Part shown: positions 2,125 through 35,426 of the stretch, one piece after another
How positions within the stretch are numbered: the first letter of the stretch is position 1
How the letters are laid out: each line of letters starts with the position of its first letter
DNA from: Chloroflexota bacterium
Lineage (GTDB): Bacteria > Chloroflexota > Limnocylindria > Limnocylindrales > CSP1-4
NCBI GenBank assembly: GCA_021825385.1
Contig: JAKAHU010000003.1
Location: 1 to 35,612, forward strand
Reading direction: 5' to 3'
Length of the DNA stretch: 35,612 bases
Position numbers and translations under genes: made by a program
Notes under the pieces: model-generated
Database searches by the model: none
The model's input: only the letters and a program-made list of their open reading frames with translations
What the model was told of the DNA's origin: nothing

Positions 2125-3567
2125 ATGCTCGACCCCACCCGGACCCTCGTCCCGGGCTCCCTCGACTGGTGGCTCGCCCGACTTGGTCGGCGCCTCGACG
2201 ATCGGCGCGTACCGATGACCCGCTTCGAGGACTACTACGCGGGCGTCCAGCCGCTCGCCTTCGCGTCCGCCAAGTTCCGCCAGGCGTTCGGCGACCGGTT
2301 CCCGGCGTTCTCGTCCAACTTCATGGCCCTCGTCGTCGACGCCCACCGCGAGCGTCTCCACGTCCAGGGCATCCGGATCGGCGATGCGCCCGAGGGCGAT
2401 GCCGACGCCTGGCGCTGGTGGCAGGAGAACCGGCTCGATGCCGAGTCGCAGAAGGCGCACACCGAATCGCTCGTCAAGGGGATCGCCTACGCGCTTGTCT
2501 GGCCGGACTCCGGAACGCACCTGCCCGAGGTGACGATCGAGTCGCCGCTCCAGGTCGTCGTCGAGACCGAGCCCGGCAAGAGCTGGAAGCGGCGTGCCGC
2601 CCTCAAGCGCTGGCTCGACGACGACGGCCGCTACCGCGCCGAGCTCTACCTGCCCGACGGGATCTACAAGTTCCACTCGGAGCAGAAGGCGGCGTGGTTC
2701 AGCGCTCCCGCGTGGGCGTCAGTCGCGACTTGGACGCGGGACGAGATCGCCACCGAGTCGTGGCCCGTGGCGAACCCGCTCGGCGTGGTCCCGATCGTGC
2801 CGATCGTCAACCGGCCCCGCCTGGCCGGCGACGGGCAGTCCGAGATCGCGATGGTGATGAGCAACCAGGACGCGATCAACAAGCTCCGCGCCGACGCCCT
2901 GATCTCGTCCGAGTTCGCGTCGTTCCGCCAGCGCTGGATCATCGGCATGGACATCCCGGTCGACCCGGAGACTGGCCAGCCGGTCGAGCCGTTCCGCTCG
3001 GCCGTCGACCGCCTGTGGATGGTCCCCCCGCCCGACCCCGATGACCCCAACCCGCCCAAGGTCGAGTTCGGGGAGTTCGAGCAGACCGACCTCGCGCCCA
3101 TCTACGCCGGGATCGACACCGAGGTCCAGCACCTGGGCGCGATCAGCCGCACGCCCTACCACTACCTCCTCCCGCAGTCGGGCCAGCCGCCCTCGGGCGA
3201 GTCGCTCAAGTCGTCCGAGACCGGGCTCATGGCCAAGGTCGCCGACTCGATGCTCAACAAGGGCGAGTCCTGGGAAGAGGTCTTCCGCCTCAACTTCGCC
3301 TTCCGGGGCGACCCGCGGGCGAACGACACCGCGTCCGAGATCATCTGGCAGGACCCGGAAAGCAGGACCGAGGCCGTCCACACCGACGCCCTCGTGAAGC
3401 AGAAGAGCCTCGGCATCCCCGACGAGATCCTGTGGGAAGGCCTCGGCTACTCGCCGCAGCAGATCGCCCGGATCAAGCGGCTGATCGCCGCGGCTCCACC
3501 GCCCGCACCGGTCCAGCCACCCGTGGTCATGCCGATGGTGGCGCCCGGTGCGCAGGTCAACCCGTGA
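2125..3567 (+). CDS. Phage portal protein, SPP1 gp6-like
   Basis: This 480-residue protein is predicted to form the dodecameric portal ring at one capsid vertex, through which DNA enters and leaves. The N-terminal segment RFEDYYAGVQPL and the NFMALVVDAHRERL region match the SPP1 gp6-type portal family. The middle contains IPIVNRPR-like and QDAINKLRAD segments typical of the stem/clip part, and the C-terminus is proline-rich. It begins with ATG 2 bases after the large terminase stop, the standard terminase-portal order. Confidence 0.9.
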   Translation: MLDPTRTLVPGSLDWWLARLGRRLDDRRVPMTRFEDYYAGVQPLAFASAKFRQAFGDRFPAFSSNFMALVVDAHRERLHVQGIRIGDAPEGDADAWRWWQENRLDAESQKAHTESLVKGIAYALVWPDSGTHLPEVTIESPLQVVVETEPGKSWKRRAALKRWLDDDGRYRAELYLPDGIYKFHSEQKAAWFSAPAWASVATWTRDEIATESWPVANPLGVVPIVPIVNRPRLAGDGQSEIAMVMSNQDAINKLRADALISSEFASFRQRWIIGMDIPVDPETGQPVEPFRSAVDRLWMVPPPDPDDPNPPKVEFGEFEQTDLAPIYAGIDTEVQHLGAISRTPYHYLLPQSGQPPSGESLKSSETGLMAKVADSMLNKGESWEEVFRLNFAFRGDPRANDTASEIIWQDPESRTEAVHTDALVKQKSLGIPDEILWEGLGYSPQQIARIKRLIAAAPPPAPVQPPVVMPMVAPGAQVNP

Positions 3568-12730: not shown

Positions 12731-13042
12731 ATGGCCCTCGCGAACGCTTCCGCGGTCACGGTTTCCACGGCGACGTGGACGACCGTCACCAGCGTCACCG
12801 GCGACGGGACGAAGCAGGTGATCGGGTTCGCCGTGAAGTGCGACGACGCGACGGTCGCCTTCGAGGCGCGGATGATGATCAACGGGGTGACGACGATCGC
12901 CGGCGTCGCCGCGCTCGCTGGTGACTCGGCGCAGATCTACGACGCGCCGACGACGATCCCGAACACGCAGAGCTGCGTCGTCCAGGTCCTCCACGCGGCG
13001 GGCGTCAACAAGGCCTTCACCGGCACGCTCCTGGGCTCCTGA
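12731..13042 (+). CDS. Small probable virion protein
   Basis: This 103-residue protein has a very strong ribosome site (AGGAGGAGGGAG) a few bases before the ATG at 12731, suggesting high expression. The sequence is beta-rich and Thr/Ala/Val-rich (VTVSTATWTTVTSVTGDGTKQVIGFAVKCDD), ending with AFTGTLLGS, which resembles small tail or decoration proteins. The track's longer frame from 12233 runs through the preceding gene and is not used. No known family is recognised. Confidence 0.6.
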   Translation: MALANASAVTVSTATWTTVTSVTGDGTKQVIGFAVKCDDATVAFEARMMINGVTTIAGVAALAGDSAQIYDAPTTIPNTQSCVVQVLHAAGVNKAFTGTLLGS

Positions 13043-16925: not shown

Positions 16926-20183
<3,258 letters not shown>

Positions 20184-20192
20184 CGTGGTCCC

Positions 20193-22976
20193 CTACTCGA
20201 GCCCGAGGCTCGTCTGTGCGGGCTGAGCAGCCCGGGCCGACTCCGCCCCACGGGACAGGTCAGGCCAGGCAACTACTAGGGCGTTGTAAGCCCGGGCCTC
20301 GTCGGTCCAGCCCTTGCGCTCGGCAACGTGATACATGCGGTAGGCGAGATCGCGGGCAGTGTCGCCGAGGCCGCCAAGTCGCGCGAGGAGGTCACCCGCA
20401 GCCGCTTCGCCGTCAGTCAGGAGCAGATGGGCGAGACGTTGCGTCGCTTCCCAGACTGGGATGCGATTGTCCTTCGTCGGGTCCCAGTTCCCGCTGTACT
20501 CGGCGCGCTCGAGAAGCCGGACCCGACCCCGCGATGCAGAGACGATGCCAGCCTCGACGAGCCCCGCGACCGAGCTGTTCTTCGCCTTCGACAGCGTCTC
20601 CGCGGTACCGTACGCGGACTCGCCGAGGCCGAACTGCTCGTACCAGGCGATCGCCCAGCGGGTGTCCGAATCGAACTCGCCCTCCTGCTCGGCGAGAATC
20701 TCGTCGAGGACCTGGTTGATGAGCGCGAGCGCCGTGCGGACTCGCATCGCCGAGCCGTCGGGCTCGAGCACCTTCGCATAGCGGCTGAAGACAGCCATGC
20801 CTGGCCCGATCGATGCCTGCGCGAGATCGACCGGTGCAATGTTCCCATGCTGCAGGGCTCTCATTGCCTCGGGCAACTCCTGCTTGAGCGATGCCACGAA
20901 GTCCTTACGAGTCGTGATACCGGCCGCTGCGATGCGCGGGCGACATACGAGGACGATTGATGATGCGAGAGCATTTCGCCCGAACTCCCTGAGCCCGCCT
21001 CGCTGCTCGGTGCGCATCGGCCAAGTGCCGTCGACCGCAAGGCCCGACGCCAACAGGCTCTCAAGCATCGTCTCCCATCCTGTTGAGGCGATTGATCCGT
21101 CCCCACTGCTCTCAGATTGACGAAAGGCGTAATAGATCGTGATCGGAAGGCCGTCGGCCGCCTGCGATCGAAGGTTCTCGAAGGTCAGTCGCAGACCCGC
21201 TTCGAAGTGCTCCTTCGCTGCCACCTTGCCTCCGAAACGCGCCTGATCAGCGACGAGCTCGGCGGACTTCGGCACGAGGATCGTCGAGAAGAGGTCTGGC
21301 CAGGTTGAGCCGAGCGACTGGCGAAGGATGGTGTAGAAGAAGTCGGAGAGGTCAGCGTAGGGAACGTTGTCGTAGTAGGGCGGATCGGTACTCACCAGGA
21401 CCGGTTCGGGCACTGTCACGATCCGGGCGTCAGCCTGCATCGAGGTGCCAGGGGCACCGCCGGGAAGCAGCCCGACGATCTTCGCGATCTGCTCGAACCC
21501 TTGGTGCCAACTGCCGGACGAGTCGCCCAGTGCGTTTGCCTCTGTGTAGTCCCAGACCATCGGTACGACAGGCAGCCCGAACGTCGGGACGAGGGTCAGC
21601 CGCTGACGGTTCCATGCACAAACGGACGTGCCGTAGTTGGCGACTTTGTCGATCGCGAAAGCGAGGTAGGTGCGGATCGCCTGTGCGTACGCGAGGGCCC
21701 CGCGGCCACCTGCCGATAGGGATTGGTCGTCCCCCTCCAGCCCGGCCGCCTCGGCGTCGCGCGCCACTCGAGCCTCTACCTCGTCGAGTAGCCCGATGAG
21801 AGTCTCGAGGACCGCTGCCTGTCGCCGTGTAAAGAGGTCCCGGAACTGGCTGAGCCCATATCGAGGTGGCGCCATGTACTGCGGGTGGGTCGACATGTCG
21901 ATCGCCGGTCCCCAGTCGGATTGGACAGCCAGCGCAATGCGCTCCTGCTCCTCGTCTCCAGCGACATAGACTCGCCCGCTCCGACTGTCGGCGACAACAG
22001 CAACCACCCGATGCCCAACTCGGCCTTTCATCGCTTCCGCCTTGACGTGATCGAGCGGGATCGACGCCGAGCAGACGACGCACCGACCGTTACCTCGAAG
22101 CATCGTGGGCTCGGGTGCGGTACCCGAACCGTGTCGGATGCGGAATGACACCGTGCGGTCCTGCCGATCGACAATCGGCTCGACCCAGACCCGGCGCCGA
22201 GCGGTGGTCTCAAGCTCGAATGACTTCAGGAGGGGCGCAGCAGCGCCGCACGCAGGGTTCGGGCACCGAACGGTTCGGGCCCACAGCCACGCGATGACGG
22301 TAGCGTCGCGGCTCCCCGAACCTTCGGGAGCCGCGACGGTCGGGTACATCGAACCAGCGCGCCGCCGCGCCTCGTCGTTCATCCAAGTTCCATACCGGCG
22401 GATGTCCTCGGCCAGCCCGGCGGCGCCTCGCCAAGCACCCGTCCCGCCCACTCCCGCACGCGCGCCGGAATGGACCGGAGGGCGGCCAGAGAACCGCGAC
22501 GGGATATCGATCTCCGCTCGCGTGATCAACACAGCCACAGGGTTCAGGTCGGAGGCGTACGCCGTCAGACCGAGCCGCTGCGCCTCCAGCGGGATCGAGC
22601 CACCACCGGCGAATGGGTCCAGCACCGCTGGCGGGTGCCCGCCGGTCGAACGGCGAATCTCGCGCCTCGCGTCCTCGAGCACCGATTCGACACCGGTGTT
22701 CTCCCATTGGACGAGTTGCTCTATGAGGCCGAACAGTCGCCGCCTCTCATCCTCCTGCGATTTGAGAGTTGGGAAGCGGTCGGGGTCAGCAGACGGGTCA
22801 TCGACGAGGCTCGCAAAGATCACGGCGCGAGCAGTTGCCAGGGGCCGACGCGCCCACCAGAGATGGAGACTGCTTGGATGACCGGTGTGGATTGCCTTCT
22901 CGCGCGCCGATGCGATGTTGATCGCCTCGAGCGGCAAGGCGAACTCGATCAGCTTGCGCCTCGGTCGGTCGCTCAC
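20193..22976 (-). CDS. DUF1156-type DNA methyltransferase
   Basis: This 927-residue protein starts with GTG overlapping the helicase stop (GTGA). Residues 31-57 contain the DUF1156 signature HTGHPSSLHLWWARRPLATARA. Motif I is DPFAGGGSI (about 120-128) and the catalytic motif IV is DPPYYDN (about 531-537), a class used for N6-adenine or N4-cytosine methylation. Between them lies a large insert with a zinc ribbon (CPNPACG and CVVCS, about 235-300). In this system the enzyme probably marks self DNA, while the helicase and DUF499 protein act on unmodified DNA; that is inference from related systems. Confidence 0.88.
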   Translation of the reverse strand: MSDRPRRKLIEFALPLEAINIASAREKAIHTGHPSSLHLWWARRPLATARAVIFASLVDDPSADPDRFPTLKSQEDERRRLFGLIEQLVQWENTGVESVLEDARREIRRSTGGHPPAVLDPFAGGGSIPLEAQRLGLTAYASDLNPVAVLITRAEIDIPSRFSGRPPVHSGARAGVGGTGAWRGAAGLAEDIRRYGTWMNDEARRRAGSMYPTVAAPEGSGSRDATVIAWLWARTVRCPNPACGAAAPLLKSFELETTARRRVWVEPIVDRQDRTVSFRIRHGSGTAPEPTMLRGNGRCVVCSASIPLDHVKAEAMKGRVGHRVVAVVADSRSGRVYVAGDEEQERIALAVQSDWGPAIDMSTHPQYMAPPRYGLSQFRDLFTRRQAAVLETLIGLLDEVEARVARDAEAAGLEGDDQSLSAGGRGALAYAQAIRTYLAFAIDKVANYGTSVCAWNRQRLTLVPTFGLPVVPMVWDYTEANALGDSSGSWHQGFEQIAKIVGLLPGGAPGTSMQADARIVTVPEPVLVSTDPPYYDNVPYADLSDFFYTILRQSLGSTWPDLFSTILVPKSAELVADQARFGGKVAAKEHFEAGLRLTFENLRSQAADGLPITIYYAFRQSESSGDGSIASTGWETMLESLLASGLAVDGTWPMRTEQRGGLREFGRNALASSIVLVCRPRIAAAGITTRKDFVASLKQELPEAMRALQHGNIAPVDLAQASIGPGMAVFSRYAKVLEPDGSAMRVRTALALINQVLDEILAEQEGEFDSDTRWAIAWYEQFGLGESAYGTAETLSKAKNSSVAGLVEAGIVSASRGRVRLLERAEYSGNWDPTKDNRIPVWEATQRLAHLLLTDGEAAAGDLLARLGGLGDTARDLAYRMYHVAERKGWTDEARAYNALVVAWPDLSRGAESARAAQPAQTSLGLE

Positions 22977-25900
22977 GCTGAAACCTCCACTACTTCTCCC
23001 TGGGCAAGTAGGTCCTTGATCGAGTAGTTCACCGACGTCGCCGCGGGGTCCGGTGCCAGCGAGAAGGGGCTGCGCAGGTAGATGGGCTCGGCGACTCGCT
23101 CACCGTCCACGCTGACGATCGCGAGATACCACCGGTCAGGCACATTGAGGCACTTCCCGATCTCGTTTCGAGTCACCGTAACCGTCGTGGCGCCCTCTGC
23201 TCGACCCTTCACCTCGATGAGGCGGAGCCGGCCGCCGGGCTCGCGGGACTCGACGTCCCAGCCGTACTTGCGGTCGCCGACGTCCTCGGGGAGGCGTCCG
23301 GCCGCCCGCTCAGCAGCCATGACCGCGGCCATCGCGAGGCGCTCGATACGTTTGGTCTCGCGGGCGAACAGCTCGGGTTCGGACGGAGCTGTGCCGGTCA
23401 GCCGATCCAGGAGGCCCCGCGGAACGACGATCGCCCCGCCGACGACGACCGGCGGGAGCGCCTGCACCTGGGCTTCCAGGTCGAGCTCGCGCATCCGAGA
23501 CCGAAGGCGATCAGCGAGATCATCAGCGCGCTGGCGGGCGACACTGCTCGCGAGGCGGGTTTGCTTACCGGCTCGCTCCTGCTCGCGCAGGCGGGCGTAC
23601 TGGCCATCCCAATAGTTGATCTCGTAGGTCAGGCGGGCGTGGACCTCGCGTCGGGTTCGCTCGATCCGGTCGAGGGTGCGCTCGCGGACCTCTGCGAGGT
23701 GGGAGCGGGCGAGGCGCTCAATGGCATAGCCCGTGGCGCGGGCCTCGAGCGTCGTGCCGACGAGCCATGCGGCGGCGTCGATCGTTGGCCCAACGAGGGC
23801 ACGCTCCTCGTCTGCGCACGGTCGGTAGTCGAGGTAGGGCGCAGCTCCGGCGCCGCCGGCATCGACCTCCCCGAGCTCCACGAACTCGAGGCGACGGCTC
23901 ACGACGGTCGGGTGCCCGTCGCGGGTGGGTCGCCCGTCGACGATCGCGTGTTCGAGATAGACCAGGGCTCGGATCGAGTCAGACGGATCGGTCTCGTCGA
24001 TCAGCAGAGCACCGCGGCGGAGGAGCTCGCGATGGTCCTGGAGGACGAGGTCGATCGTCGCTTCCAGGAGCGGGTGGCCGGGGCAGACGAACTCGGCGAG
24101 CGGGAACCCGACGACCGCGACCCGGTCCTTCTCGAACGCGATCCGCTCATACGCGCCGAGGACCCCGGGGCGCATCGCGGCCTCTCGTGCCCGATCCCGG
24201 ATCCGTCCGGGGACCTTCGTCAGCTCGTAGCGTCCTGGCTCGCGCTCACGGACCTGGCCGCCGAGGCGCCGGTACGCCAGGAGGAAGAAGTCGCGGACGT
24301 AGTGCGGCTGGAGCCGGTTCGCCTCGGCGCGTTCGAGATCGTCGCGAACCGCGGCGACCTTGGTCGTGTCGAGGAGGTTGGCACCGAGGGCACGTGTCGC
24401 GAGGAGGGCACGGAGGTGCTCGACGTCCAGGGCCTCGTCAATGACCCGTGTCATCTGGGTCCGGACCTCAGGGCTGTCGCCCAGGCGGATCGCCTCGATG
24501 AGGAGCTGGCGGAGCGGCTTGCCCTCGAACGTGACTTCCCCGAGAACATCGAACACGGTGCCCCCGAGGGCCTCCGTCTGGACGGCGATCTTCTGGAGCA
24601 GCCGGGCGTAGACGTCGCCCTCGCGGGTCTTGTCTGCAACCAGGTTCCACAGGTGGCACGGCTCGGTCTGGCCGATCCGGTGGATCCGCCCGAACCGCTG
24701 CTCGATCCTGTTGGGGTTCCAGGGCAGGTCGTAGTTGACCATCAGGTGGGCGCGCTGGAGGTTGATGCCCTCGCCCGCCGCATCGGTCGCGACGAGGACG
24801 ACGACCGCGGGATCGTTCTTGAATGCAGACTCCGCTGCGCGCCGCTGGTCGCGCGGCAGCCCACCATGGATCGCGACGATGGCCTCCGGCCGCCCGAGGA
24901 AGGTGCCGATCCGCTCAACGAGATAGTCGAGCGTGTCACGGTGCTCCGTGAAGACGATGAGCTTGCGCCTCCCACCGCCGGCATCGCGCATCTCGGGCGC
25001 CTCCTGGAGGAGCGTCGAGAGCTCGGTCCACTTCGTGTCCGTGCCGAGCTTCCGGACCTGTGCGGCGAGGGCCTCGAGCTCCTTGAGCCGTTCGATCTCG
25101 AGACGGAGCTCCGCGATCGTGCTGGCGGCAGTGGCGAGATCGACCGCGGTCTCCTCGGCCGCCTCGGCCTCCTCCGCGGTCGCCTCGTCATCATCGATCT
25201 CCTCGATGTCGGCGATCGTGATCGCGTTGAGGTCCGGCTGACTGATCCGGGCCTGGGCGCCGTCCCGCTGCAGCAGGGTCTCGGCGAGCGTTCGCTCCAA
25301 GCGGGCCAGACGACGCTTGAGCGACATATGGATCGCCGCGGGCGATGACGCGAGGCGGCGCTGGAGGACCATGAGCGCGAAGCCGACGATCAGCCCCCGC
25401 TTGCCCTCGCCCTCCGCCTTGAGCCGCTCGGCCCGGTTCATCTCCTCGCGGACGTAGGTGGTGACCTGCTCGTAGAGGGCGGCCTCGGGCCCGGACAGGT
25501 CGTAGGGCACCACGTAGGCGTACCGGGGCGGGAAGAGCGCCGTCCCGTCGAACTTGACGAGCTGCTCCTTCATCAGCCGGCGCATGAGCTCGCCCGGGTC
25601 CGATACCGGCGGGGCTGCGTCGGACGCCTTGCGCTTGTGCCCCGCAAACCGGTCGGGGTCGAGCAGGCTCATGAACAGCTCGAAGTCCTCCTCCTTGCCG
25701 TTGTGCGGCGTCGCGGTCAGGAGGAGGAAGTGCCGGGTGTGGGGCTTGACCCGCTCTGCGAGGAGGCGCCGCTTGGTCTTCTTGACCTCGCCCGAGAACA
25801 GCTGGGCGGAGAGCTTGTGGGCCTCGTCGAAGACGATGAGGTCCCAGTCGGGAGCGTTGTCGAGGATGAGCTGGAGGTCCTCGTCTCGGCTGAGCTTGTC

Positions 25901-26500
25901 CAGGCGGGCGATCAGCAGATCGCTGTCGGCGAACGGGTTGCCCGACGCCGAGCCCTCGATCCGATCGCGGGTGAGGAGCGTGAAGTCGAGGTGGAACTTC
26001 TCAGCCAGCTCGGCCTGCCACTGCTCGACGAGGGAGCCCGGGGTGACGATGAGGCAGCGCCGGAGGTCGCCCCGGACGATGAGCTCGCGGATGAACAGCC
26101 CGGTCATGATCGTCTTGCCGGCGCCCGGGTCGTCGGCCAGGAGGAAGCTCAGCGGCTGGCGGGGCAGCATCGCCTCGTAGACGGCGGTGATCTGGTGCGG
26201 TAGCGGCTCGACGAGGCTCGTGCTGACCGCGACGTACGGGTCGAACAGGTAGGCGAGGTCGATCCGCTTCGCCTCGCTGGCCAGCTTGAAGGCTTCCCCA
26301 TCGCCATCGAAGGCCCAGGGCTTTCCCTCTTCGACGATCGCCAGGCGCGGCTCGTCCTCGCGGTAGACGAGGCGCTCGGCCACGGCACCGTCGGCGGTCC
26401 GGTAGGTCAGCGTCAGGACCTCTGAGCCGTGCCAGCTGACATCAACCACCGTGACGGCGTGATCAGGCGTGACGCCCGCGATGAGAGCGCCCTTCGTCAA
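22973..26500 (-). CDS. SNF2-type helicase with C-terminal DUF3883
   Basis: This 1175-residue protein (from the TTG at 26500) has a superfamily-2 core: Walker A DDPGAGKT (about 123-130), DEAH box (about 225-228), TATPHNG near 261, and motifs V-VI (TDAAGEGINLQRAH, then QRFGRIHRIGQ) near 575-610. A long helical region follows, then a DUF3883-type segment near the C-terminus (about 1080-1140: KYGWDVESREPGGRLRLIEVKGR), a nuclease-like fold often found in restriction and defence proteins. The architecture is like DISARM DrmD. The true start may be 18 bases upstream at an ATC codon with a good ribosome site (see findings). It probably translocates on invading DNA. Confidence 0.88.
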   Translation of the reverse strand: MTKGALIAGVTPDHAVTVVDVSWHGSEVLTLTYRTADGAVAERLVYREDEPRLAIVEEGKPWAFDGDGEAFKLASEAKRIDLAYLFDPYVAVSTSLVEPLPHQITAVYEAMLPRQPLSFLLADDPGAGKTIMTGLFIRELIVRGDLRRCLIVTPGSLVEQWQAELAEKFHLDFTLLTRDRIEGSASGNPFADSDLLIARLDKLSRDEDLQLILDNAPDWDLIVFDEAHKLSAQLFSGEVKKTKRRLLAERVKPHTRHFLLLTATPHNGKEEDFELFMSLLDPDRFAGHKRKASDAAPPVSDPGELMRRLMKEQLVKFDGTALFPPRYAYVVPYDLSGPEAALYEQVTTYVREEMNRAERLKAEGEGKRGLIVGFALMVLQRRLASSPAAIHMSLKRRLARLERTLAETLLQRDGAQARISQPDLNAITIADIEEIDDDEATAEEAEAAEETAVDLATAASTIAELRLEIERLKELEALAAQVRKLGTDTKWTELSTLLQEAPEMRDAGGGRRKLIVFTEHRDTLDYLVERIGTFLGRPEAIVAIHGGLPRDQRRAAESAFKNDPAVVVLVATDAAGEGINLQRAHLMVNYDLPWNPNRIEQRFGRIHRIGQTEPCHLWNLVADKTREGDVYARLLQKIAVQTEALGGTVFDVLGEVTFEGKPLRQLLIEAIRLGDSPEVRTQMTRVIDEALDVEHLRALLATRALGANLLDTTKVAAVRDDLERAEANRLQPHYVRDFFLLAYRRLGGQVREREPGRYELTKVPGRIRDRAREAAMRPGVLGAYERIAFEKDRVAVVGFPLAEFVCPGHPLLEATIDLVLQDHRELLRRGALLIDETDPSDSIRALVYLEHAIVDGRPTRDGHPTVVSRRLEFVELGEVDAGGAGAAPYLDYRPCADEERALVGPTIDAAAWLVGTTLEARATGYAIERLARSHLAEVRERTLDRIERTRREVHARLTYEINYWDGQYARLREQERAGKQTRLASSVARQRADDLADRLRSRMRELDLEAQVQALPPVVVGGAIVVPRGLLDRLTGTAPSEPELFARETKRIERLAMAAVMAAERAAGRLPEDVGDRKYGWDVESREPGGRLRLIEVKGRAEGATTVTVTRNEIGKCLNVPDRWYLAIVSVDGERVAEPIYLRSPFSLAPDPAATSVNYSIKDLLAQGEVVEVSA

Positions 26501-28761: not shown

Positions 28762-31346
28762 GGGCCCTTCTCGAGAGCGCCCTCTGCATGGCGGCCACCG
28801 GCTGGGGGGTGATCCCGTTGCACACCCCGATCGACGGCACCTGTGATTGCCATCGGCCCGACTGCTCCTCGGCCGGCAAGCATCCCCGGACGAAGAACGG
28901 CCTCAGCGACGCGACCACGGACGCCGATCAGATCCGCAAGTGGTGGGGCATGTGGCCCACGGCGAACATCGGCGCGGTTGTCCCGGACGGCTTCGTCGTG
29001 GTCGACGTGGACGTGGCGGATCTCGCCACGGTCTTCCGGAGCGATGAGCTGCCGAGAACGGCGATGTCGAGGACAGGCCGGGGCCGGCACCTGATCTACC
29101 GCACGACCACGGCGATCCGGCCCAAGGTCGGCGTCAGGGAGCACGTCGACCTCCGGGGGCCCGGCTCCTACATCGTCGTCCCGCACTCACTCCACATCAG
29201 CAACGTGCGCTACGAGTGGATCGTCCCGATCGAGGCCGGGATCGCGGACACACCGGCGTGGGTCGCCGAGACAGCCCGATCACCTCGGACGGCTGGCGAC
29301 CACCCCGAGGATTCGGACGCCATCCCCGACGGTCAGCGGAACGCGACGCTGACCTCGCTGGCGGGCACGATGCGGCGCCGGGGCATGACCGCCGCCGAGA
29401 TCGAGGCCGCGCTGCTGGCGGTGAACGCCGGCCGCTGTCGACCGCCCCTGCCAGATGACGCGGTCCGGGGCATCGCCTCCAGTGTCGGGCGCTACCCGCC
29501 GGGCGACGGGCGGACCTCCCCGCCGCCAGCCGCCGACGATCACGACGACGGTGATCCTGCCGCGACCGATGACCGCGACGGCGCGCCCGAGGTGGAGTCT
29601 GGCGATCCGGGCCCCGCCGAGCCCGCGGCAGGCGGGAAGCGATCCCAGGCGACCATGATCCTGGACCTCGCGGCGGACGTCGAGTTCTTCCACACCGCGG
29701 ACGACGTCGCCTACGCTCGCATCGAGCGCGAAGGCCATCACGAGGTATGGCCGCTTGGATCGAAGGCCCTTCGAGCGTGGCTGTCCCGCCAATTCCACAT
29801 GGAATATGGGCGAGCCGCCGGCGGCCAGGCGCTGCGCGATGCTCTCGACGTCCTGATGGGCCGGGCGCTCTTCGAGGGGCTCGAGTGCCCGGTGTACGTC
29901 CGGGTCGCTGGTGATGGCCCCGACATCTACCTCGACCTGGGCGACCCGCTCTGGCAGGCGATCAGGATCACGGCCACCGGCTGGGACCTCGTCGCCGACC
30001 CGCCCGTGCGCTTCCGCCGCCCGAAAGGTCTGCTCCGCCTGCCCGTGCCCGTCCGGGGAGGCACCGTGGATCAGCTCCGTCGATTCGTGAACGTCCGGGA
30101 TGACGACCAGGACAACCAGTGGCGCCTGTTCCTCGGCTGTCTCGTCGCGGCGTTCCGGCCGAACGGTCCGTATCCGATCCTCGCCCTCAACGGCGAGCAC
30201 GGCTCGGCCAAGTCCACCACAGCGAAGATCCACCGTCGCCTGATCGACCCCAACAAAAGCGTCACCCGCGCCACGCCGCGTGATGAGCGAGATCTGGCGA
30301 TCGCGGCGACCAACGGCGCCGTCATCTCCCTCGACAATCTCTCGACCGTCTCGGACTGGCTGAGCGACACGCTCTGCCGGGTCTCGACCGGGCTGGGCTT
30401 CAGCACCCGCACCCTCTACGAGAACGACGAGGAGACGCTGTTCGACGCCTGCCGCCCGATCGTCATCAACGGCATCGGCGTCCTGGGCACGCGCAGCGAT
30501 CTGCTCGACCGCACGATCGAGCTCGAACTGCCCCGGATCCCGGACGATCGCCGCCAGGACGAGGCCCAGTTCTGGGCCGCGTTCGATCGCGAGCAGCCGT
30601 CGATCCTCGGCGCGCTCCTGGACGCGGTGTCGGGCGCCATCGGTCAGCTCGATGCGGTCAAGCTCGAGCGGGCGCCCAGGATGGCCGACTTCGCCCGCTG
30701 GGTCGTGGCAGCCGAACCGGCGCTGGGGTGGCCCCCCGGCTCGTTCCTGAAGGCGTACACGGGCAACCGAGACGCGATCCACGAGATCGCCCTCGACGCG
30801 GCGGTGATCGTCGCGCCGATGCGCACGATGCTGGAATCGGGCGAGTTCGTGGGGACCGCGACGGAACTCCTCGACCGCCTCGCGGGCATCGTGGGCGAGC
30901 CGGCCACGCGGCGCAAAGGCTGGCCCGGGAACGCGACGTCGCTCTCGCGGGAGCTCGCCCGCATCGCGCCCAACCTCCGCTCGGTCGGGATCGAGGTTGA
31001 GAAGCGTCGCGAGTCGCACGGGCGCCGCCTGATCGCCATCCGCGAGGTCCCGGAAACGTCGTCACCCGCGTCACCGCCGTCACCGGCCTCGGGCGCAGGT
31101 GACGCAACAGCGCCGGAAGGTGACGGGACGGGTCTGTGGGGTGAGGCGAGCGTCACCGAGGATCGTGCTCGCGGTGACGACGGTGACGCTGGTGACGCTC
31201 CTCTGCCTACTCCGGCGCCTGACGACCTGGACGTCGTCCATGCCGCGATGCGGATCTTCGGCGACGACATGACCGACGAGTCGGCAGCACGCCTCAGGAC
31301 CGTGGTCGATGGCACGGATGGCTACGAGTGGGGCGGGCTCGCGTGA
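28758..31346 (+). CDS. Prim-pol / helicase replication protein
   Basis: This 862-residue protein is the probable replication initiator of the element. Residues 1-170 are a bifunctional DNA primase/polymerase (prim-pol) domain: GWGVIPLHTP, a CDCHRPDCSSAGKHPRTKNG zinc-type segment (about 29-48), acidic VVVDVDV (about 80-86) and SRTGRGRHLIYR (about 104-115). About 190-250 resemble a primase C-terminal domain (GQRNATLTSLAGTMRRRGMT). About 430-700 form an ATPase with Walker A GEHGSAKST (about 479-487) and ISLDNLS. The C-terminal 90 residues are low-complexity and acidic, encoded by DNA rich in GTCACC/GGTGAC motifs. It starts at ATG 28758. Confidence 0.82.
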   Translation: MRALLESALCMAATGWGVIPLHTPIDGTCDCHRPDCSSAGKHPRTKNGLSDATTDADQIRKWWGMWPTANIGAVVPDGFVVVDVDVADLATVFRSDELPRTAMSRTGRGRHLIYRTTTAIRPKVGVREHVDLRGPGSYIVVPHSLHISNVRYEWIVPIEAGIADTPAWVAETARSPRTAGDHPEDSDAIPDGQRNATLTSLAGTMRRRGMTAAEIEAALLAVNAGRCRPPLPDDAVRGIASSVGRYPPGDGRTSPPPAADDHDDGDPAATDDRDGAPEVESGDPGPAEPAAGGKRSQATMILDLAADVEFFHTADDVAYARIEREGHHEVWPLGSKALRAWLSRQFHMEYGRAAGGQALRDALDVLMGRALFEGLECPVYVRVAGDGPDIYLDLGDPLWQAIRITATGWDLVADPPVRFRRPKGLLRLPVPVRGGTVDQLRRFVNVRDDDQDNQWRLFLGCLVAAFRPNGPYPILALNGEHGSAKSTTAKIHRRLIDPNKSVTRATPRDERDLAIAATNGAVISLDNLSTVSDWLSDTLCRVSTGLGFSTRTLYENDEETLFDACRPIVINGIGVLGTRSDLLDRTIELELPRIPDDRRQDEAQFWAAFDREQPSILGALLDAVSGAIGQLDAVKLERAPRMADFARWVVAAEPALGWPPGSFLKAYTGNRDAIHEIALDAAVIVAPMRTMLESGEFVGTATELLDRLAGIVGEPATRRKGWPGNATSLSRELARIAPNLRSVGIEVEKRRESHGRRLIAIREVPETSSPASPPSPASGAGDATAPEGDGTGLWGEASVTEDRARGDDGDAGDAPLPTPAPDDLDVVHAAMRIFGDDMTDESAARLRTVVDGTDGYEWGGLA
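31061..31196. repeat. Iteron-like GTCACC/GGTGAC array (candidate origin)
   Basis: Nine exact copies of a 6-mer occur in 136 bp inside the replication gene: GTCACC at 31061, 31070, 31079 and 31152, and its reverse complement GGTGAC at 31098, 31119, 31173, 31182 and 31191. A tenth near copy (GGTGAG) is at 31140. Three direct copies at 9-bp steps face three inverted copies at 9-bp steps, and several inner copies are 21 bp apart. Lambda and satellite phages also have origins inside or near their initiator genes. Confidence 0.5.
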
Positions 31347-31522
31347 CCGCCCAGGCGCTGCCACCCGTGGGGCACGATCCGCTCATCGTCGCCCTCGCCC
31401 GCTACGTCGAGGCGCTCCATCGGCGCTATCCCGACGGCCCCGACCAGCTACGCCGGGAGGGACTTGACGCCAGAGCAAAGGTGTCCGAGATGGTCACGAT
31501 CCAGAAGGTCACGGCAGCGTGA
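31343..31522 (+). CDS. Small hypothetical protein before the recombinase
   Basis: The GTG at 31343 overlaps the replication gene stop as GTGA and gives a 59-residue protein, better than the track start at 31328. It contains DPLIVALARYVEALHRRYPDGPDQLRREG, a helical segment, and ends with EMVTIQKVTAA. Its stop overlaps the recombinase start (GTGA), so all three genes are probably translationally coupled. No family is recognised. It might be a recombination directionality factor or only a linker gene; nothing in the sequence decides. Confidence 0.6.
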   Translation: MTAQALPPVGHDPLIVALARYVEALHRRYPDGPDQLRREGLDARAKVSEMVTIQKVTAA

Positions 31523-33021
31523 AGCGCCTTCCCCGCTCGCTCGACGAGATCGGCGGTCTACGGGCGGCCCGCTGGATTCGGGAGTCGACGGCCGGCCAGT
31601 ACGACCGGTACGGCCCGGCGAGCCAGCGCGAGCAGCAGGACCGGTTCATCGAACGCCACGGCCTCGTCGACACCGGGCTCGTCTACCAGGTCGCGCACAG
31701 CGGTCGGACCGTCTGGCGCTCGGCGACGATGGCCACGATGGTCGACGATCTCCGGGCCGGCCGTTTCGACCTCCTCCTGACCGGCTATTCGGACCGCTGG
31801 CAGCGCAACCTGCGCCGGACCCTCGAGCTCCTTGAGGACGAGCTGCACCCGAATGGGGTCGCCCTCGTCATGTGCGACCGGAAGATCCTGAGCTCCGACC
31901 CCTCCGACTGGGACGAGCTGATCTCGGAGGCCGCCGGCGCGGAGAAGTACAGCCGTCGGCTCTCGGAGCGCATCACCGAGGGCTACGCCGCCAAGTTCGA
32001 CCAGGAGCACGACCCGGGTGGCCATGCCGCCCTCGGCTTCCGGCGCCTGCCGGAGCCGCCGCACACCCTCGAGATCGACCCCGACCGCATGCCCGTCGTT
32101 GTGGGCCTGTTCGAGCAGTACGCGCTGGGCAACGTGAGCGCGGTGCAGCTCGAGGCAGAGACCGGGCTCGCCGCGACACGCATCCGGATGATCCTCATGA
32201 ACCCGCTCTACAACGGCTGGATCCGGCGGCACCGCGGCACGAACGAGACGCGCCGACCGGCACCATGGCGGGCAGCACCCCCCGTCTCCGACGAGCTCTG
32301 GGCGCGGGTGGAGGAGGTCCGACGTGCCAAGACCCGCGGCGGAGGACCGAAGAACTGGGATCGTGTCGACCTGCTGGGCGGCCTCCTTGAATGCGTGTGC
32401 GGTCGCCAACTGCGGAACGACGGAACGTTCGCCGATGGCCGCCACCGCAAGCACCACGCCAACCCGTGCGAGGCCTGGGGCCGTAAGGCCCGCCTCGGCG
32501 ACGCGACCTGGGAGACGCCTGTGCTGGCCCAGGTCGCCGGCATCGCGCTCGACGACGTCACTCTCGCATCGGTCGTCGCGGCGCTCGGGTCGAACCAGCA
32601 GCCGGTCGCGATCGACCGGGCGCGGATCGAGCGGCAGATCCGCGAGCTGGCGCTGGAGCACGCTGGCGGCCTGCTCGGCGACGACACCTACCTGACGCGC
32701 CTCAAGGCACTCCGCGAGCAGCGGGACGCCATCGTGGAGCGAACGGCGGCGGGCCTACCCGGCCATCGCGCAGTCGAGTGGCTGCGCGCCCTCGGCGAGT
32801 CCTTGCAGACCGCAGACGTACCGAAGGAGAAGGCAGATCTGATGCACGCCATCTACGAGCGGATCACGGTCGCGGGCCCCGAGATCGTGGGTGTCCGGCT
32901 GACCGGGGCGGCCTACGCGCACGGATTGGCGCTGGCGCTGCCCGAAAAGGTTGAAATGGCGCGCCCGACAGGATTCGAACCTGCGACCTTCGGCTCCGGA
33001 GGCCGACGCTCTATCCGCTGA
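31519..33021 (+). CDS. Large serine recombinase (integrase)
   Basis: This 500-residue protein should integrate and excise the element. The resolvase domain has the catalytic serine at residue 23 in ARWIRESTAGQYDRYG, with SQREQQDRFIERHG and a RFDLLLTGYSDRWQRN segment. The recombinase domain (about 175-260: EHDPGGHAALGFRRLP, ATRIRMILMNPLYNGW) is followed by a zinc ribbon (ECVCGRQLRND, then HHANPCEAWG) and a coiled-coil region. Residues 480-500 (MARPTGFEPATFGSGG...) are encoded entirely by the complement of a tRNA gene, so the C-terminus depends on integration. The GTG start overlaps the previous stop. Confidence 0.9.
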   Translation: MKRLPRSLDEIGGLRAARWIRESTAGQYDRYGPASQREQQDRFIERHGLVDTGLVYQVAHSGRTVWRSATMATMVDDLRAGRFDLLLTGYSDRWQRNLRRTLELLEDELHPNGVALVMCDRKILSSDPSDWDELISEAAGAEKYSRRLSERITEGYAAKFDQEHDPGGHAALGFRRLPEPPHTLEIDPDRMPVVVGLFEQYALGNVSAVQLEAETGLAATRIRMILMNPLYNGWIRRHRGTNETRRPAPWRAAPPVSDELWARVEEVRRAKTRGGGPKNWDRVDLLGGLLECVCGRQLRNDGTFADGRHRKHHANPCEAWGRKARLGDATWETPVLAQVAGIALDDVTLASVVAALGSNQQPVAIDRARIERQIRELALEHAGGLLGDDTYLTRLKALREQRDAIVERTAAGLPGHRAVEWLRALGESLQTADVPKEKADLMHAIYERITVAGPEIVGVRLTGAAYAHGLALALPEKVEMARPTGFEPATFGSGGRRSIR

Positions 33022-33996: not shown

Positions 33997-34731
33997 TCAG
34001 GGACGGCTGACCGTCGCCTTCGTGACGGCGACGGGCTCGAGCGCCTGGTTCGCCGGCGTGCCGGAGTTCGGCATCGCCGCGATCGCGTCGACGACGTCCA
34101 TCCCCGAGGAGACGGTACCGAGGATCGCGTACGTGTTGGCCGACTCGAGCGCCGGTCGGGCCTGGTCGTCGAGCACGATGAAGAACTGGCTGCCCTCGGA
34201 GTTCGGCGCCGGGGTCCGGGCCATCGCGACCGTCCCGCGGCCGTACGGCGTCGTCACCGGGTCGTCCGTGATCGTGTACCCGGGCCCGCCGGTCCCCACG
34301 AGGCTGGCGTCGACGTTCGGCTTCCGGCCGTACTCGCCGTCGCCGCCCTGGATGACGAAGCCCGGGACGAGCCGGTGGAAGACGACGCCGTCGTAGAACC
34401 CGCACGCGGCGAGTGCCACGAAGTTCCCGGTCGCGTTCGGGGCGAGGGAGCCCTTCACGTCGATGACGATCGTCCCCTTCTCCGTCTCGAGCGTCACCTT
34501 CGCGGTCGCGTCGGCTGCGAGCGGCGGCGGGGCGCTCGTCGGGCAGCCGGCGGGGATCCCGCCGGCCGGGCTGGCCGGCGCCGAGGCGGGGGCGCTCGCA
34601 GGGGGCGAGGCGGGCGTCCCGGACGGCGAGCCGGCCGGCTGGATCGGCGAGGCGCTCGAGCCGCACGCGGCGGCGAGGAGCGCGGTGGCCGCGGCGAGCG
34701 CGGCGAGGCGGCGGGCGGGTGCGAGGGTCAT
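33997..34731 (-). CDS. Lipoprotein cyclophilin (peptidyl-prolyl isomerase)
   Basis: The track extends this frame to 35511, but that part is shadow coding of the HisA-like gene. The ATG at 34731 overlaps the HisA-like stop (ATGA) and gives 244 residues. The N-terminus has a signal (RRLAALAAATALLAAAC) ending in a lipobox cysteine, then a Pro/Ala/Ser-rich linker, then a cyclophilin domain (FYDGVVFHRLVPGFVIQGGDG, AMARTPAPNSEGSQFFIV). It should therefore be tethered outside the cytoplasmic membrane and help fold exported proteins. Confidence 0.88.
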   Translation of the reverse strand: MTLAPARRLAALAAATALLAAACGSSASPIQPAGSPSGTPASPPASAPASAPASPAGGIPAGCPTSAPPPLAADATAKVTLETEKGTIVIDVKGSLAPNATGNFVALAACGFYDGVVFHRLVPGFVIQGGDGEYGRKPNVDASLVGTGGPGYTITDDPVTTPYGRGTVAMARTPAPNSEGSQFFIVLDDQARPALESANTYAILGTVSSGMDVVDAIAAMPNSGTPANQALEPVAVTKATVSRP

Positions 34732-35426
34732 GCGGCGGCCTCCAGGGCGGCGGGGTACGCGATGCGGCCGGTGAGGAGCGCCTCCCCGAGGACGACGCCG
34801 GCCGCGCCGGCATCGCGGAGGCGCCGGATCCCGGCAAGGTCGACGACGCCGCCGGCGACGAGGACCTCGAGATCGAGGTCCCGGGCCAGGCGGCCGACGA
34901 GCGCGGCGTCCACCGCGCCGCCGTGGGAGAGGACGAGACGGCGGACGCCGAGCCCGGCGAGGTCGGAGGCGACGTCGTCGACGGCGGGGCGCCTCCCGTC
35001 GCGCCACGGGAACGCGGCGAGGCGCTCCGGTCGCGGGTCGAGCCCGACCGCCAGCCAGTCGCCGGCGACGGCGAGGCAGGCGCGGAGCGTCGGCGGGTCG
35101 TCGGCCATCGCCATCGGGACGACGACGCGGGTCGCACCCGCGGCGAAGGCGAGGCGGACCTGGTCCGGGCCGTCGACCCCGCCGGCGAGCTGGAGCGGCA
35201 CCGCGACGCGCGCCGCGATCCGCCCGACGACGTCGAGGCTCGCCGGGCGGCCCTGCCGGGCGCCGTCGTGGTCGACGAGGTGGACGACTCGGGCGCCCTG
35301 CTCGACGAAGCGCACGGCGATCAACTCGGGACGGTCCGTGGGGGCGCCGACCCCCGCGGCCGCCCCCGGCCAGAAGACGATCCGGGAGCGGCCCGCGGAC
35401 AGGTCGAGCGACGGGATGACGAGCAC
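34728..35426 (-). CDS. HisA-like TIM-barrel protein
   Basis: This 232-residue protein starts with GTG, 14 bases after the preceding gene. It resembles HisA, which isomerises ProFAR in histidine synthesis: N-terminal VIPSLDL with the catalytic-type Asp at residue 8, ARVVHLVDHDGARQGRP, LQLAGGVDGPDQVRLAFAAGATRVVV, a second acidic strand AVGLDP, and VLVAGGVVDLAGIRRLRDAGAAGVVLGEAL. The first loop (about residues 10-30) is unlike normal HisA, so it may be a paralogue with a different substrate. No other his genes are visible. Confidence 0.75.
   Translation of the reverse strand: MLVIPSLDLSAGRSRIVFWPGAAAGVGAPTDRPELIAVRFVEQGARVVHLVDHDGARQGRPASLDVVGRIAARVAVPLQLAGGVDGPDQVRLAFAAGATRVVVPMAMADDPPTLRACLAVAGDWLAVGLDPRPERLAAFPWRDGRRPAVDDVASDLAGLGVRRLVLSHGGAVDAALVGRLARDLDLEVLVAGGVVDLAGIRRLRDAGAAGVVLGEALLTGRIAYPAALEAAA

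Follow-up and report, generated by a model that had tools for sequence, protein, structure and literature searches.

A compact array of short repeats, nested in the last codons of a prophage initiator gene, probably consists of binding sites (iterons) for the initiator encoded by that same gene and serves as the replication origin of the prophage. The repeats lie in a stretch of 35,612 nucleotides of a Chloroflexota contig (JAKAHU010000003.1; the whole stretch is called the window below), which looks like a prophage, with terminase, portal and tail genes on its left. Selection on the array acts at the level of the DNA. Since the helicase family to which the initiator belongs matches the plan of the SaPI Rep and Cch proteins in fold, domain order and place of the array, we infer that the array is an origin, the best supported of the roles considered; it would be bound by the protein and would load two helicase rings.

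The initiator gene and its surroundings

The initiator combines a primase, a helicase and a winged helix in one polypeptide (Table 1). Its Pfam matches are PF09250 (3e-30) and PF08708 (1e-12), and the two features by which Prim-Pol (AEP) replication proteins are recognized, PF09250 and PriCT_1, are both present; matches to PHROGs also fall on the primase part. The helicase part has no specific family in Pfam or NCBIfam: among 62 members, none matched the D5_N, Pox_D5 or primase C-term models of Pfam, only weak matches to AAA_16, AAA_5 and VapE-like families were seen, and searching the PDB with a sequence profile of the family returned only weak, mostly generic P-loop matches. When the structure model of this part was compared with PDB folds using Foldseek, the SaPI5 primase-helicase 7ola ranked first (E 1.2e-8, TM 0.56/0.61), followed by AsfvPrimPol and the NrS-1 CTR, with 7pds and poxvirus D5 matched as well. 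Model residues 408-474 (pLDDT ~92) adopt a winged-helix-like topology, and this domain is presumed to be the reader of the iterons. The array occupies the last ~100 codons of the gene, in a low-complexity tail immediately behind the winged helix that is probably disordered.

Table 1. Features of the array, the initiator gene and the defence operon in the window
Feature	Position	Strand	Basis
Initiator gene: Prim-Pol + PriCT_1 + AAA+ helicase + winged helix + low-complexity C-terminal tail, 862 aa	28758..31346	+	ORF, Pfam
Prim-Pol (AEP) domain, residues 9-168	28782..29261	+	Pfam
Helicase + winged-helix part, 477 aa	29625..31055	+	structure model, pLDDT 93.2
Walker A motif GEHGSAKST	30192..30218	+	G/G/K columns invariant in 62 homologs
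Winged-helix-like C-terminal domain, strand-helix-helix-strand-strand wing	30846..31046	+	model secondary structure
Left arm: three CGTCACC units, 9-bp steps (31060, 31069, 31078)	31060..31084	+	
Spacer separating the arms, 88 bp	31085..31172	.	
Inner copy, inverted	31098..31104	-	
Inner copy, inverted	31119..31125	-	
Inner copy, direct, in another frame (Val-Thr)	31151..31157	+	
Right arm: three inverted CGTCACC units, 9-bp steps (31173, 31182, 31191)	31173..31197	-	
HmaC DUF499/HEPN ATPase	16926-20183	-	PADLOC
HmaB adenine methylase	20193-22976	-	PADLOC
HmaA helicase	22973-26500	-	PADLOC

Downstream of the initiator, the ORF of a serine recombinase (integrase; 31519-33021) starts ~170 bp past the initiator stop codon. 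A homolog of hisA of the chromosomal type (PF00977) is found on the minus strand at 34728-35426, near the right end of the window; the contig therefore probably ends on the right in host chromosome, which would put the boundary of the prophage between the serine recombinase and hisA. The prophage also carries a complete Hma-type defence operon (16926-26500, minus strand; PADLOC scores of 968-1537 bits).

A facing array of CGTCACC units

The original prediction of nine exact GTCACC/GGTGAC copies within 136 bp (31061-31196) holds at every position: copies start at 31061, 31070, 31079 and 31152 on the plus strand and at 31098, 31119, 31173, 31182 and 31191 on the minus strand, giving successive steps of 9, 9, 19, 21, 33, 21, 9 and 9 bp. 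The conserved word is best written as the 7-mer CGTCACC rather than as a hexamer. The proposed core of three direct units facing three inverted ones is likewise present, the two arms (26 nt, 92% complementary) standing 88 bp apart with three further copies between them. Fewer than one copy had been expected by chance, in agreement with the ~0.1 per 136 bp that we obtain from a shuffle count; over the whole window, 50 hexamer sites occur, against 25.2+-4.9 in shuffles. When all 6-mers and all 136-bp stretches are considered, the array is the maximum of the window (9 copies) and the remainder reaches 6, whereas 60 third-order Markov simulations of the window gave maxima of only 5-6. The 3.54-Mb genome bin has just two occurrences of the triple unit GTCACCN3GTCACCN3GTCACC, which face each other and both belong to this array, so that, by this search, such a density is absent elsewhere in the genome. 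Chance or base composition as the cause of the array is thus excluded by the shuffles, the simulations and the search of the genome bin.

A weaker cluster was seen in the tail-gene region of the window (12784-12925), where two plus-strand CGTCACC units 9 bp apart are followed, 86 bp and 120 bp on, by inverted copies. The spacer of the initiator array is not AT-rich, and a search for a switch of GC skew at the array found none; both results count against an origin.

Selection on the DNA rather than on the peptide

The encoded tail is indeed repetitive, in line with the low complexity noted originally, and has repeated SPx and GDx tripeptides. Three of the gene's five TCA codons fall inside the 53-codon array segment, bearing out the reported concentration of this serine codon, as do 7 of its 13 GGT codons. 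A single DNA word is nevertheless read in several frames, encoding Ser-Pro in three plus-strand copies, Val-Thr in one, and Gly-Asp in the minus-strand copies.

Six close relatives (the window, L002, L004, L005, L006 and L021, the others being 85-98% identical to the window) were compared. Third codon positions are invariant at 19 of 19 sites inside the repeats and at 29 of 82 outside, and 94% of all positions inside the repeats are invariant, compared with 54% elsewhere in the tail. The set also keeps the inner copies of either orientation, and L004 has one additional 9-bp unit. Across the family, we recoded each tail by keeping the peptide and redrawing synonymous codons from the usage of the same gene; the array was lost (p<0.01) in 51 of 69 testable tails, with a mean maximum of 6.9 copies in real and 2.8 in recoded tails. 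Permutation of synonymous codons within each tail gave a significant result for 52 of the 69. Both nulls are conservative because the peptide repeats are retained. Selection on the DNA itself, as originally suggested, is strongly supported by the invariance of third positions, by the recoding nulls, by relatives whose arrays are noncoding and by the excess over control DNA described below.

Arrays in distant homologs

A profile of the helicase part retrieved 80 genomic loci and 48 from viral contigs; together with those of related genomes and one phage, and after near-duplicates were dropped, 124 loci were analysed. The collection relied on one or two conserved peptide patterns and covers the family in part. 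Each locus was scanned in full for its most significant two-strand 7-mer cluster, and the zone running from 60 nt before to 800 nt past the point where the helicase match ends was considered. The best cluster fell in this zone in 72 of the 98 loci having any cluster, compared with 11.0 expected from its length. In 60% of these zones the count was at least 6, a level attained by 1.9% of the 1270 control stretches taken from these loci (Fisher p = 1e-67, a value that is indicative only, as related loci are not independent). Most homologs have kept an array, although its word has changed, so that the loss from functional homologs named originally as a refuting condition is not seen in most of them. 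In the locus scans a minority of homologs have no array near the gene, the helicase of phage Zeta1847 (L019) among them, and the location is thus not universal. Weak motif scores only were obtained for 17 loci.

Words differ by lineage, and the layout in common is one set of units, spaced in steps of ~9 bp, opposite an inverted one. Many tails consequently encode pairs of peptides that are each other's reverse complement at the DNA level, such as GVAGVAG/TPATPAT (L009), PSAPSA/ADGADG (L010), TPPTPP/GGVGGV (L041) and VTTVT/GDDGD (L103); the last of these loci shares the CGTCACC word of the window, its left arm being read as Val-Thr there and as Ser-Pro in the window. Distant relatives with this layout span many bacterial phyla, the taxonomy of binned contigs being tentative, and records of named strains with arrays include Streptomyces, Celeribacter, Rhodovulum and Rhodomicrobium. 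An archaeal record (L032) has facing units directly after the helicase match; reading frames are uncertain in a few loci, this one and L024 among them.

The array need not be coding. Among 78 loci with facing arms, it is coding in 46, follows the stop codon in 29 and spans it in 3. The near-identical sequences of L133 and L135 have the word AAGTCCT in common, at steps of 9-8-36-8-9, and the array is part of the coding tail in L133 and starts 15 nt past the stop codon in L135; a closely similar coding array is found in L125. In noncoding arrays, 79 of 159 steps are 9 bp, and the 9-bp period is thus not merely that of three codons. Steps divisible by three make up 61% in noncoding arrays and, under codon constraint, 84% in coding ones. 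An AT-rich unwinding element was sought in the spacers and only a small effect emerged (36% AT, against 33-34% for the loci; p=0.009 for coding and 0.13 for noncoding arrays).

Several other repeats were observed at these loci. Three loci (L127, L132, L143) lack an array where the gene ends and show strong clusters (CTTCACA, GTCAGCA) that lie 1.7-3.3 kb upstream and possibly are relocated arrays. In short-tailed Streptomyces homologs (L056, L062, L064, L066, L067, L069, L077, L094, L095, L098), CAGGGAG/CCTCCCTG forms a further two-strand cluster, which is found ~730-1170 nt past the helicase match and may serve transfer or regulation. L009 has, separate from its iterons, three near-perfect 20-bp tandem repeats (TGACCCATCTGAGTCTCGGG; 3485-3551) downstream of its initiator gene. 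Finally, initiators of a different family, RepAM/DUF3631 (PF12307), have facing CCGCTAC or CCGCCAC arrays of 7-13 copies across their own stop codon (L157, L158, L162, L166-L169, L175, L176).

Which part of the protein may read the word

Similarity of words is correlated with similarity of the winged helices when the helicase core is controlled for (partial Mantel r=0.21, p=0.001), whereas the reverse control gave no correlation with the helicase core (p=0.42). Among actinomycete loci, a GNRSR wing accompanies 6 of 6 arrays of the GCACC type and none of 28 of the GCGTC type. L045 and L068 have GCACC arrays, yet their helicases are nearest to members of the GCGTC type, and the helicase of L093 (GCGTC) is ~90% identical to those of L063 and L084 (GCACC). 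Because wing and array adjoin, exchange of a single 3' segment can contribute to this co-variation, which could thus partly reflect linkage. The primase partner varies, being a Prim-Pol in the window and L025 and a TOPRIM or CHC2 domain in L133 and L101, while the array stays; the array therefore belongs to the helicase/winged-helix module. As homologs of the TOPRIM/CHC2 type keep the array and the word tracks the winged helix, the likely binder, judged from these comparisons of sequence, is the winged helix at the end of the helicase and not the Prim-Pol primase.

Alternative roles of the array

The strongest competitor, which we nevertheless consider unlikely, is that the repeats are bound by the initiator for purposes of control, be it autoregulation, copy-number handcuffing, incompatibility or regulation of the downstream integrase gene. 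Plasmid iterons can also serve copy control, the integrase ORF begins close behind the initiator, and an AT-rich opening site is not evident. Initiation is nonetheless favoured by a helicase in need of loading, by the facing arms and by the SaPI/SCC precedent, and an array at the 3' end is poorly placed to regulate the gene's own promoter.

Less likely again is that the conserved feature is a long hairpin of the two arms, as RNA or extruded DNA, instead of protein sites. The arms are highly complementary, their RNA fold reaches -84 kcal/mol (z -3.95), and a stem-loop of ~100 nt that follows the gene is required by the Prim-Pol replicon pRN1 (PMC4234260). Against this, the steps of the units are mirror-symmetric between the arms in just 22 of 64 facing pairs, and the bases between words agree about equally well within an arm (65%) and between arms (72%), as a motif slightly longer than 7 bp would predict; on testing, the hairpin is weakly disfavoured. 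The conserved inner copies of both orientations and the tracking of the winged helix by the word also speak against it.

Other roles at the DNA level have an even smaller chance of being correct. Transfer origins, partition sites, packaging signals and recombination enhancers are often repeat arrays, and the family is found in phages and in actinomycete chromosomal contigs that may represent integrative elements, but the position of the array is tied to the helicase and winged helix, and its word follows the latter. Scarcely credible, lastly, is a low-complexity linker of SPx and GDx tripeptides kept for flexibility or charge, with the DNA repeats as a by-product: the tail is truly repetitive and multiples of three are commoner in coding arrays, but such a cause is contradicted by the disappearance of the array upon peptide-preserving recoding, by invariant third positions, by one word being read in different frames and by the same array recurring beyond the stop codon.

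A model for the proposed nested origin

If the array is the origin, the winged helices of several helicase protomers would bind successive 9-bp units of one arm and those of other protomers the oppositely oriented arm, so that two helicase assemblies would be placed in opposite orientation, flanking the spacer. ATP-driven unwinding would then open the DNA, and the fused Prim-Pol would prime both forks. More speculatively, a step of 9 bp turns the helix by ~-51 degrees, not far from the 60 degrees that separate adjacent subunits of a hexamer, and one protomer after another could thus reach one unit after another.

A broader proposal, which we hold with about even confidence, is that a large uncurated family of initiator helicases in several phyla carries its own origin as a facing array that shifts between coding and noncoding positions, with array word and wing switching together; the gene would be a self-contained, self-identifying and exchangeable replicon cassette of ~2 kb (helicase, reader and origin) able to change compatibility group in one step, and RepAM/DUF3631 would have the same layout. 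We found no mapped origins in the literature searched for phages or integrative elements of this helicase family, and the arrays would offer a route, by sequence alone, to the origins of a widespread group of such elements and to the matching reader domain. They would also provide dozens of natural word/reader pairs for studying how winged helices choose a DNA word, could make the compatibility of elements predictable, and would explain repeated C-terminal peptides (VTTVT..GDDGD, TPPTPP..GGVGGV, PSAPSA..DGADGA) as translated origin DNA.

Comparison with known systems

The origin of bacteriophage lambda sits inside gene O and consists of four direct iterons and an AT-rich region. It shares with the array described here (where binding is predicted) the nesting of initiator-binding iterons in the initiator's own coding sequence; unlike the window array, its iterons are direct and without facing arms, and O is not a helicase.

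The SaPI Rep and SCC Cch2 helicases bind, via a C-terminal domain, iterons situated just downstream of their own gene (PMC7581432). The present family resembles SaPI Rep and SCCmec Cch2 in having an AAA+ helicase with a C-terminal domain (DNA-binding there, predicted to be so here), iterons at the gene's 3' end, and SaPI5 7ola as the best fold match. It differs from them in sequence (~10% identity, no Pfam match of the D5_N/Pox_D5 type), in the Prim-Pol or TOPRIM domain fused at its N terminus, in arrays that are often inside the coding sequence, and in words that are mostly GC-rich 7-9-mers in facing arms. By analogy, the window protein may work like the SaPI Rep/Cch group, a comparison of mode of action and not of family membership.

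The domain order of Prim-Pol, SF3 helicase and winged helix recurs in ORF904 of pRN1, whose gene is followed closely by an essential inverted-repeat element comparable to the present arrays; unlike these, the pRN1 origin is described as a noncoding stem-loop without iterons (PMC4234260). Among actinomycete integrative elements, replication genes of the AICE RepAM (PF12307) and Prim-Pol/RepPP modules, for example SCO4617-SCO4618 of SLP1 (PMC3218068), are similar in kind, and RepAM loci have facing arrays across the gene end as in the present family; RepAM is, however, a different protein family with predicted rolling-circle replication (PMC3218068). The oriV of the IncU plasmid RA3 was also mapped at the 3' end of an initiator gene, repB, which differs in being a plasmid RepB and a single case (PMC9455977).

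Iteron origins beside an initiator-helicase gene, and origins nested in an initiator gene, are thus already known kinds, and our search of open papers for a nested facing array gave only analogues. What is new, as far as the open literature searched shows, is a nested facing array across a whole family, whose words vary by lineage in step with the winged helix and whose position is within the coding sequence in some members and beyond it in others.
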